Source of the DNA: Alphaproteobacteria bacterium
GTDB lineage: Bacteria; Pseudomonadota; Alphaproteobacteria; RF32; CAG-239
Direction of reading: 5' to 3'
DNA: 64,000 nt
NCBI GenBank assembly: GCA_015062235.1
Contig: SUUZ01000001.1
Location: 62,001 to 126,000 of the forward strand
The translations under genes were made by a program, and so were the position numbers. Every line of letters begins with the position of its first letter. The stretch's first letter is position 1. Under the pieces are notes generated by a model. It was given only the letters and a program-made list of their open reading frames with translations, was not told the origin of the DNA and did not search any database. Shown here one piece after another: positions 59,279-62,252 of the stretch.

Positions 59279-59354
59279 GCCGACATAGCTCAGTTGGTAG
59301 AGCTACTGATTTGTAATCAGTGGGTCGGGAGTTCGAGTCTCTCTGTCGGCACCA
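59279..59354 (+). tRNA. tRNA-Thr (TGT)
   Basis: GCCGACA/TGTCGGC acceptor, anticodon loop TTTGTAA, T-arm, encoded CCA. Confidence 0.93.
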
Positions 59355-59356
59355 TT

Positions 59357-59386
59357 AAAAAATCCCCCTTTCACGGGGGATTTTTT
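59357..59386 (+). terminator. Terminator after tRNA-Thr (copy 1)
   Basis: AAAATCCCCCTTTCACGGGGGATTTTTT. Confidence 0.88.
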
Positions 59387-59560
59387 AATGGTTATCGCCA
59401 GAGGCCTCGAACTCACGAAAGAAGGAAGTTTGACAAGGAGGAGCAGGCGAGACGAAAGTATCGCCACACTTGCGATGACGAAGCGGCCGAGCATTTTATA
59501 TGCGAGGTCTGTCTCTCTGACAGCCCTCATGGGCTGTTCTTTATACAAATTTCATTCCCT

Positions 59561-59584
59561 TCCCCCTTTCATGGGGGATTTTTT
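59561..59584 (+). terminator. Second, partly degenerate copy of tRNA-Thr terminator
   Basis: TCCCCCTTTCATGGGGGATTTTTT resembles 59357-59386. Confidence 0.75.
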
Positions 59585-59634
59585 GTTTTGGCTCTATTAA
59601 ACAATTTTGTTGAAATATATTCTAAATAAAATCC

Positions 59635-59664
59635 TTGCTAAATTATTTTACAAGAATCTATAAT
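59635..59664 (+). promoter_or_regulatory. Predicted sigma70-like promoter for passenger ORF A
   Basis: TTGCTA-N18-TATAAT. Confidence 0.65.
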
Positions 59665-59704
59665 GTGATTCTGTTTAATAATTTATGAAAGGATTTATAA
59701 AAAT

Positions 59705-59917
59705 ATGACTGATAAAAAATCAATAAATATGAAATTACCAAGTCCTAAAAAATCTATGCAATATATTGAAGAAAATGGTTCTTCATTTGTGAGAATTATT
59801 TGTGAAGATGATACAGTAATTGTAATTAAAATTGGAAATAATATGAATAATACACTACAAAGACAAATTTTTGAATTAGAGGATGATGAAAATATAATTA
59901 CTGTTCTGAAATCTTAA
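59705..59917 (+). CDS. Passenger ORF A, hypothetical 70 aa protein
   Basis: GAAAGGAT SD upstream, promoter at 59635-59664; inside transposon. Confidence 0.75.
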   Translation: MTDKKSINMKLPSPKKSMQYIEENGSSFVRIICEDDTVIVIKIGNNMNNTLQRQIFELEDDENIITVLKS

Positions 59918-60035
59918 TGTTTTTATTGTTAGATAATATGGTAATGGGCACATCATTTTCCCTAGTTATTACTACATTGTTATCTGTAATTTCTATTTTT
60001 GTTGAATCATTTAAAAGTATAACTTTCTCTTTCAT
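59898..60035 (-). CDS. Passenger ORF B, hypothetical 45 aa protein (not in ORF track)
   Basis: AAGGAGGT SD 7 nt upstream of ATG; MKEKVILLNDSTKIEITDNNVVITRENDVPITILSNNKNIKISEQ. Confidence 0.7.
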   Translation of the reverse strand: MKEKVILLNDSTKIEITDNNVVITRENDVPITILSNNKNIKISEQ

Positions 60036-60111
60036 CTCTTAAACCTCCTTATAAATTTATACAAATATTTATAATAAGATTTTTGTTATTTTTAGTTTCA
60101 TAAAAATTTAT

Positions 60112-60140
60112 TTGACTCACATCAGTAAAAATAATAGTAT
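60112..60140 (+). promoter_or_regulatory. Predicted sigma70-like promoter for passenger ORF C
   Basis: TTGACT-N17-TAGTAT. Confidence 0.6.
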
Positions 60141-60177
60141 CCATATCATATTAATTTTGCATTAGGGATAGAACAAA

Positions 60178-60459
60178 ATGATGAAAATTTACGATAAAAT
60201 AGATATGCAAGTAACTGATAATGATAATTGGAGATATGAAAGATTACATATTGTTATTGGGTATTTGTATGCAAAAAACGAAGAAACTATTGATATGATT
60301 AATAAAATAGAGGACCATGAAGGTTTTCTATTAATAACTTGGAAGAAACAACCAGATGCTTCACAAATTAAAGACTGTCAAAATATATGGGAATCATCGT
60401 TATGCAATGAATGTTGTGAAAATATAGAACATTATTTTAACGGTGTTGTTATTCCTTAA
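60178..60459 (+). CDS. Passenger ORF C, hypothetical 93 aa protein
   Basis: Promoter at 60112-60140; no recognised family. Confidence 0.7.
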   Translation: MMKIYDKIDMQVTDNDNWRYERLHIVIGYLYAKNEETIDMINKIEDHEGFLLITWKKQPDASQIKDCQNIWESSLCNECCENIEHYFNGVVIP

Positions 60460-60800
60460 TAATTGCGTTTCCTTGCTTCAAATTCTCTACTACATCTTTC
60501 TTGACAGGCAACATTTTCGTGCATGTTATATGCTCCTATTCTACTTCCATAACCACAATTATTTACACATGTTTTATATTGATTATCCTTTTTAGGTTGG
60601 CATGCAATACCTATTATAAAAAACATTATAACAAACAATATAAAATATAAACATCCTTTACGATATTTTTCATCATTTTTATATTTCTTATCTTGTTCTA
60701 ATTGTTCTTTGTACTTTTTTAAACTAAATCCACAATGAGGACACATATCTGCACTTTCAGATATTTCTTTTCCACATTCATTACACTTAATCAATGCCAT
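60456..60800 (-). CDS. Passenger ORF D, zinc-ribbon plus single-TM protein with Cys-rich tail
   Basis: IKCNECGKEISESADMCPHCGF zinc ribbon, TM GCLYFILFVIMFFIIGIACQ, C-terminal CVNNCGYGSRIGAYNMHENVACQERC. Confidence 0.8.
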   Translation of the reverse strand: MALIKCNECGKEISESADMCPHCGFSLKKYKEQLEQDKKYKNDEKYRKGCLYFILFVIMFFIIGIACQPKKDNQYKTCVNNCGYGSRIGAYNMHENVACQERCSREFEARKRNY

Positions 60801-60854
60801 TATAAAATTCTCTTATTCATACACAATATAATTGTAGAATAATAACAAAAGATA

Positions 60855-61766
60855 TTAAAATCCAAATAAACAATCTTTTATTAACAAGTTATTATCAGCA
60901 CCAGATTTTATCCAACTAAACCAATTCAAATAATTTGTTAAATATCTTGTGCTAATTCCATTAAAAGGTCTTATAAAATCTTTCAAACCTTTATGATAGT
61001 TATTTACATTGTTAATATGGTAAATACCATTTTTATACTTACCTCTTGCTATTCTTTTGTGTTGTAAATTATGATTTTTAGCAAATCCAATATATGATTT
61101 ATGAGAATCTGTTACTAAAATTGAATCTTTCTCAATCTTATTACCTAAAACATTTTCAATTTGATTTGTTTTTAATCTACCTTTACCATAAATATCAGCA
61201 ATAATATTTTTATTACCATCAATAGCAACCATTATACCAACTTGTTGGTGGGATATTCCTCTTAATTTTGCTTTACCACCTCTTTTTCTGCTTTCAATTC
61301 CTTCTATTTTCTTTCCTTTATGGGATTCCAATAAAAATGTTTCATCTGCTTCAACAACTCCTGAAATAGTTATGTTTTCAAATTGTTTTCTAATAGCATT
61401 TAATACTTTATGCCTCCAATGAAAAGCTGTTAAAACTGACATATTCAATTTATTTGCAATTTTGGCAAGAGATAAACCTTTCATCATCAAATCAATGTAT
61501 TTAAACCAAGTATCATAATCTTTTTTAGTGCTGAAAAATACAGTTTTTGTGTATTCTGTAAATGTTTTACCACAATCTTTACATCTATATCTTTGAATGC
61601 CACTACTGTTTCCAAATTTTTGAATGTGTTTTTTACCACAAATAGGGCAAACAATACCATTTTCAAATCTTTTTACAGAAGTTTTTGTTTGTTGAACTTC
61701 ATTTAAAAGATTTTTTAATTCTTCTACTGATAACTTTTTTAATTGCTCTATTAAATCTTGTTTCAT
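60855..61766 (-). CDS. IS1595/ISXO2-like transposase
   Basis: N-terminal zinc ribbon CPICGKKHIQKFGNSSGIQRYRCKDCGKTFTEYTKT; catalytic region VVEADETFLLESHKG ... ILVTDSHKSY ... YHINNVNNYHKGLKDFIRPFNGISTRYLTNYLNWFSWI. Confidence 0.95.
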   Translation of the reverse strand: MKQDLIEQLKKLSVEELKNLLNEVQQTKTSVKRFENGIVCPICGKKHIQKFGNSSGIQRYRCKDCGKTFTEYTKTVFFSTKKDYDTWFKYIDLMMKGLSLAKIANKLNMSVLTAFHWRHKVLNAIRKQFENITISGVVEADETFLLESHKGKKIEGIESRKRGGKAKLRGISHQQVGIMVAIDGNKNIIADIYGKGRLKTNQIENVLGNKIEKDSILVTDSHKSYIGFAKNHNLQHKRIARGKYKNGIYHINNVNNYHKGLKDFIRPFNGISTRYLTNYLNWFSWIKSGADNNLLIKDCLFGF

Positions 61767-61949
61767 TTTGTTTATCCCTTTGTTTTTTACATGACAATCA
61801 TATCATTTTTAAGAATAAAGTCAAGTCATTTTTCAACAAAATTATTTAATAGAGCCTTTGTTTTAAACATACTTGCATTTTTCAAATAATTAAATTATCA
61901 TCTGCCCACTATTTGAAATTATGATGTCTAACTATTAAATTTATGTATT

Positions 61950-62252
61950 ATGAAAAAAGAAATTTTATGCGGAAAAATTGCTTCTCAACCATCTGCTGTA
62001 ACACTGAATGGAGAGCATAACGGTATTGTCGTATTTTTTTTAATAGAAATTGATGGAAAGTATTACAAACTTTGTTACAGAGATGCTGTTCCAGCTAATA
62101 CGTTCTCTAACATCCTTGTTTCATCTGTTGGAGACGATATACGAGTTGAGGTGTCATCAGTTTTTTATTCTGATGCAAGGGTGATAAGTGAGTTTTTCAA
62201 TTGTACCCGTGGTTTAGGAAAACATTGCGATAAACATACCTTTAGTAAATAA
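61950..62252 (+). CDS. Hypothetical protein (orphan)
   Basis: 100 aa, TTGCAT-N17-TATCAT upstream, no SD. Confidence 0.6.
   Translation: MKKEILCGKIASQPSAVTLNGEHNGIVVFFLIEIDGKYYKLCYRDAVPANTFSNILVSSVGDDIRVEVSSVFYSDARVISEFFNCTRGLGKHCDKHTFSK

Follow-up and report, generated by a model that had tools for sequence, protein, structure and literature searches.

Passenger-bearing members of the IS1595 family are already known as transporter ISs (tISs), a concept credited to Siguier et al. 2009 in PMC3129680. MTnSag1 (also tISSag10) and tISCpe8 are such elements; their ends measure 25 bp, their repeats 8 bp, and their targets are A/T-rich (PMC5704250). So far, passenger-carrying IS1595 elements have mainly been known as resistance-gene carriers in Firmicutes and Campylobacter. 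Here, we describe a member that extends this range to a gut/rumen family of Alphaproteobacteria, with orphan small genes as cargo. As elements of this kind are on record (PMC5704250, PMC3129680), the novelty is confined to the content of the cargo.

The element lies in a window of 64,000 nucleotides, which is the whole stretch of alphaproteobacterial DNA that was analysed. It shares with MTnSag1 of Streptococcus agalactiae (ISSag10 in plasmids) an IS1595-type transposase (36% identity), ends of about 25 nt starting with GGCT, an 8-bp duplication and A/T-rich targets (PMC5704250), and a passenger located between the transposase and the right end. MTnSag1, on the other hand, has one known passenger, lnu(C), in 1725 bp, whereas the window element holds three or four orphan ORFs. 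Moreover, excision and mobilisation by Tn916 are reported for MTnSag1 (PMC5704250), while the window element is known from sequence alone. tISCpe8 of Clostridium perfringens, compared here by description, is likewise an IS1595-family transporter IS (PMC5704250) but carries lnu(P). The closest named plasmid relative is ISCaje6 from a Campylobacter jejuni plasmid (1744 bp; 41.5% identity to the window transposase). Its left end, GGCTCTGTTAGACAATAATGTTGATA, is five mismatches away from the window end, and it has a single passenger, a DUF4829 protein; in the copy examined the duplication is not intact, unlike that in the window.

We read the window element, with high confidence, as an autonomous IS1595-family transporter IS with an exchangeable cargo region. 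It spans positions 59590-61856 (2267 bp), and its main features are given below, where G numbers denote genomes of a related-genome set with one genome per species.

59560-59578, plus strand: host intrinsic terminator, directly upstream of the insertion, with the duplicated target in its T-tract
59582-59589, no strand: left target-site duplication TTTGTTTT (from the sequence; present once in the uninterrupted sites of sister genomes)
59590-59618, plus strand: left terminal inverted repeat GGCTCTATTAAACAATTTTGTTGAAATAT (repeat search)
59590-59699, plus strand: conserved left end, 92% identical to the G054 element and 87% to that of G064
59988-60091, no strand: conserved, partly palindromic segment, 74-80% to the G054 and G064 elements
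60855-61766, minus strand: IS1595-family transposase, 303 aa (NCBIfam NF033547, Pfam DDE_Tnp_IS1595, alignment)
61797-61824, minus strand: promoter-like site TTGACT-16-TATGAT of the transposase (promoter scan)
61828-61856, minus strand: right terminal inverted repeat (repeat search)
61857-61864, no strand: right target-site duplication TTTGTTTT (from the sequence)

The terminal inverted repeats are 29 nt long and 93% complementary, and an exact 8-bp TTTGTTTT sits directly outside both of them. Within the window, the 26-nt end repeat occurs at just the two element ends (0 expected from shuffles), and with up to three mismatches no further site was found in the 1.43-Mb assembly (reversed-pattern control, 0); the host genome has a single copy of the element. 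The transposase ORF runs for 303 codons with no internal stop and scores 190.8 bits against NF033547 (cut-off 75) and 46.6 bits against DDE_Tnp_IS1595 (PF12762; cut-off 27), with an N-terminal zinc-binding domain at 49.7 bits (NF050000; cut-off 28). In an alignment of nine transposases D141 and D220 are invariant, and N255 and K262 are conserved, one relative being without N255. The DD(E/N) catalytic residues thus appear to be in place, and catalysis is predicted. Family model, zinc-binding domain and DD(E/N) residues, inverted repeats, and 8-bp duplication all place the element in the IS1595 family. The transposase takes up 40% of it, and the other 60% is non-transposase DNA in which the passenger genes lie between the ends; in relatives, this cargo is replaced wholesale. 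The first-pass annotation had already recognised a complete IS1595-like transposon with passenger genes, with inverted repeats at both ends, an exact 8-bp duplication, and an intact ISXO2/IS1595-type transposase on about 40% of 2267 bp, and on all of these points it stands. Its span of 59582-61864 includes the target duplications and has been narrowed to the element proper.

Insertion took place downstream of a tRNA-Thr gene, in a terminator's T-tract. Empty sites, which had been suggested as a check, were sought by joining both flanks with one TTTGTTTT and searching sister genomes, and they were indeed found. G034 has an uninterrupted site with one TTTGTTTT, where tRNA-Thr and the junction share a strand and are separated by a few hundred bases, just as in the window; this is therefore very probably the same locus lacking the element. 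Similar sequences run through in G033, G037, and G039, with one TTTGTTTT each; these need not all be the same locus because the flanks are dispersed repeats. The 8-bp duplication just outside the outer ends, together with the uninterrupted sites in sister genomes, demonstrates an insertion, apparently of the unit as a whole and apparently a recent one. An intrinsic terminator adjoins 5 of the 15 insertions with this type of end, as opposed to 6.3% of A/T-rich intergenic positions chosen to match (P about 0.002, in an exploratory comparison conceived after two cases had been seen).

Where does the element fit in its family? In a plasmid search, the nearest transposases (36-42% identity) belong to ISCaje6, ISSag10, and unnamed Bacilli elements. 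Most of their ends begin with GGCTnTnT and most have 8-bp duplications. All of them have cargo between transposase and right end, and it differs from one element to the next: lnu(C), a DUF4829 protein, a polysaccharide deacetylase, a DinB protein, a 74-aa protein together with a DUF6176 protein, and, as assigned by reading of the sequence, a lipoprotein-like protein and a HAD-like hydrolase. The more distant IS1595 relatives, from Pseudomonadota, measure 1032-1059 bp and are plain ISs with no passenger. In a tree of 17 sequences, one branch with support 100/100 parts the passenger-bearing elements from the minimal ones, in what is a small, hand-gathered set. Judged from these sequences, passenger carriage seems to be the rule in the element's branch of IS1595. 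At E<=1e-30, the transposase was found in none of 386 class-wide Alphaproteobacteria besides the window's own genome, an absence that would fit acquisition from outside the class.

Nearer to the host, the end sequence itself occurs with up to two mismatches in 13 of 158 host-order genomes (reversed control pattern, 0). Two genomes of the host family besides the window's own combine these ends with the transposase. The G054 element (2078 bp, duplication AATAATTA) has a transposase that is 86% identical as a protein and the same ends. In the G115 element (2161 bp), the transposase is 76% identical and the ends are again the same; its duplication ATAATTAT is read across contigs C2 and C15, and at least two copies are present, a further one lying on C23 with an identical end. 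Both genomes are Alphaproteobacteria MAGs (named records), one of them from water deer rumen. The window and G054 elements are homologous over element positions 1-110 (92%), 399-502 (74%), and 1271-2267 (85%), and unrelated elsewhere. Hence, ends and transposase are 85-92% identical to the closest relative while the cargo is unrelated, as it is in G115. G054 carries a 74-aa ORF and a bacterial PH-domain protein (Pfam bPH_2), and G115 carries ORFs of 170, 87, and 84 aa on both sides of the transposase. The conservation of segment 399-502 within the cargo region means that not every part of it is freely exchanged; its palindrome could equally be a terminator or an operator.

The same ends also enclose elements of the mobile insertion cassette/MITE type, which share window-type ends and duplications but have no transposase gene, whereas the window element keeps an intact one. 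A 607-bp derivative in G064 (duplication TTTGTAAA) retains the 74-aa cargo ORF of G054 at 97% identity plus a remnant of the transposase gene, about 33 nt from its very end, and empty elements of 135-403 bp with related ends and 8-bp duplications occur in G011, G012, and G130. With near-identical ends, unrelated cargo, and transposase-less derivatives side by side, cargo exchange by a minimal transposon becomes directly testable. Neither an exact match to the end sequence GCTCTATTAAACAATTTTGTTGAAA nor a transposase relative turned up in viral contigs. As a separate observation, MITE-like elements of 135-403 bp with IS1595-type ends are numerous in G130, G012, and G011 (L045-L049, L114-L138); G130 has 17 end matches, mostly of the variant GCTCTATTAAACGAATTTGTTGAAA, and no close transposase was found in these three genomes.

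The cargo region of the window element holds the following ORFs.

59705-59917, plus strand: passenger p70 (70 aa), orphan, coding z 4.1
59898-60035, minus strand: ORF p45 (45 aa), doubtful as a gene, coding z 2.0, Shine-Dalgarno site GGAGG
60178-60459, plus strand: passenger p93 (93 aa), orphan, coding z 3.9, preceded by TTGACT-17-TAGTAT
60456-60800, minus strand: passenger p114 (114 aa), coding z 3.1, Pfam Zn_ribbon_3

The coding score compares codon usage with that of the host ORFs of the window, on which it was trained; 70-codon pieces of host genes score 2.2-6.1 (10th-90th percentiles) and antisense pieces -3.8 to -1.2. On this scale, p70, p93, and p114 are likely genes. p70, p45, and p93 lack relatives, so codon usage and start signals are the basis for calling them coding, and p45 is doubtful because its codon score is weak and its aligned counterpart in G054 reaches only z 0.5, despite a good Shine-Dalgarno site. 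The conserved segment 399-502 had been considered as support for the 45-aa gene and was dropped, since the G054 counterpart ORF does not score as coding. Well-placed promoter-like sites precede the transposase, p70, and p93, and the conserved left end includes the site TTGCTA-18-TATAAT (59635-59664); in number, the sites of the region (26) do not exceed those of shuffled sequences (22.9 +/- 4.5).

In its predicted layout, p114 combines an N-terminal zinc ribbon (27.5 bits against Zn_ribbon_3, barely over the cut-off of 27), a hydrophobic segment at about residues 50-66, and a Cys-containing C-terminal part, and relatives were found for the N-terminal part only. From these features, it is classed as a zinc-ribbon plus membrane-helix protein. 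The other three ORFs have no relatives in Pfam, NCBIfam, or PADLOC, only weak matches in PHROGs (E 0.046 or worse), and none among 156 other host-family genomes; p70 and p93 are also absent from phages, plasmids, and viral contigs. A single-sequence structure model of p70 is all-beta (pLDDT 66) with no structural match at E<=0.001, and a model of p93 (pLDDT 49) is unusable. The first-pass annotation had listed four ORFs (70, 45, 93, and 114 aa) as a four-gene cassette with at least two promoters. All four ORFs exist, but a count of four genes is overstated as three look coding, and the promoter-like sites before p70 and p93 are well placed, though the regional count of such sites is not in excess of chance. 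Its zinc-ribbon/TM reading of the 114-aa protein and its remark that the passenger set is unrecognised agree with our searches. It had further staked its proposal on the same inverted repeats accompanying other transposase copies, as they do in G054 and G115, and on the passenger genes not occurring at this locus without them; p70, p45, and p93 are missing from every other host-family genome.

Taken as a transporter IS, the element would work as follows. The terminal repeats would be recognised by the transposase, which would place the entire unit in an A/T-rich target of 8 bp and thereby duplicate that target, as in the terminator T-tract used here. What lies between the ends and the transposase would be a cargo region, its content being exchanged between elements. 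p70, p93, and p114 (perhaps also p45) would be passengers without a role in transposition because they are fully replaced in elements with 76-86% identical transposases. Derivatives that have the same ends but lack the transposase, with or without cargo, would presumably be moved in trans. Our best guess for the cargo is accessory small-protein genes that may be kept for helping the host or the persistence of the element, by analogy with lnu(C) or toxin-antitoxin pairs on relatives.

An alternative that we consider unlikely, yet worth keeping in mind, is that the cargo is an integral persistence module (toxin-antitoxin-like or anti-host) instead of neutral or host-beneficial baggage. In G111, the same ends surround ParE-type toxin-antitoxin genes without a transposase, although no 8-bp duplication was found there and we do not claim an intact element. 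The first-slot ORFs of three elements (p70, G054_74, and G064_74) have long inverted repeats over their ribosome-binding sites, that of p70 lying in the conserved left end, and these score 8, 9, and 17, respectively, against a host 95th percentile of 7.3 and a maximum of 9. In other transposons, ribosome-site hairpins stop translation of read-through transcripts, and we conjecture by analogy that those seen here may limit expression in the same way. Nevertheless, toxin, antitoxin, and defence models match none of p70, p45, p93, and p114, and p70, p93, and p114 form no tight two-gene operon, p45 being doubtful. A candidate link, namely that the G111 toxin-antitoxin genes share the 399-502 palindrome upstream, was dropped as side-by-side starts show their own promoter.

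An improbable extension of the same observations would make the cargo slot an exchange site, where small, fast-evolving accessory genes are swapped between IS1595-type ends, some in toxin-antitoxin form and others like p70 and p93, with hairpins at the ribosome site shielding translation from transcription that starts outside and insertion favoured beside terminators, amounting to a small cassette-exchange system of gut alphaproteobacteria. Slightly less probable still is a composite of at least two mobile elements or an MTnSag1-type integrative mobilizable element using a foreign conjugation system. The IS1595-type elements MTnSag1 and tISCpe8 are mobilised by Tn916 via an oriT in the cargo gene (PMC5704250), but the window element contains no relaxase gene, and there is a single pair of ends in the window and in the whole genome. 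Finally, the least probable reading takes the non-transposase part as regulatory or decayed non-coding DNA with chance ORFs, as the A/T-rich DNA, the poor scores of p45 and its G054 counterpart, and the lack of homologues for three of the four ORFs might suggest, but the scores of p70, p93, and p114 (z 3.1-4.1) are like those of equally long host genes, p114 has a recognised zinc ribbon, and relatives carry recognisable genes at the same place.

Several observations concern neighbouring or related sequences. In G111, locus L043 (G111:C2:681-4254) has, between IS1595-type ends, three copies of one toxin/antitoxin-like gene pair that share a near-identical promoter region, and two of the toxins match Pfam ParE_toxin. 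Strong hairpins (z -6.9 and -4.3) were seen at L041:3103-3175 and L040:4490-4572, where an arm of 14-20 nt ends at an ATG and covers its Shine-Dalgarno site; the ORF behind them does not score as coding. The left flank of the element (59286-59589) consists of tRNA-Thr and near-duplicate CCCCCTTTCA(C/T)GGGGG terminators, with about 200 bp of sequence lying between these, a unit that is tandemly repeated in G035 (G035:C9:62180-62786). The right flank (61865-61960; L181, L182, L183, L184) is formed by a leader of about 95 bp, dispersed in the genome and with CATCTGCCCACTATTTGAAATTATGATGTCTAACTATTAAATTTATGTATTATG in its downstream half. This leader is present at about seven places in the host genome, three of them about 850 bp apart on C6, and also in many sister genomes before unrelated small or orphan ORFs, and it resembles a shared promoter/leader module or a cassette border.
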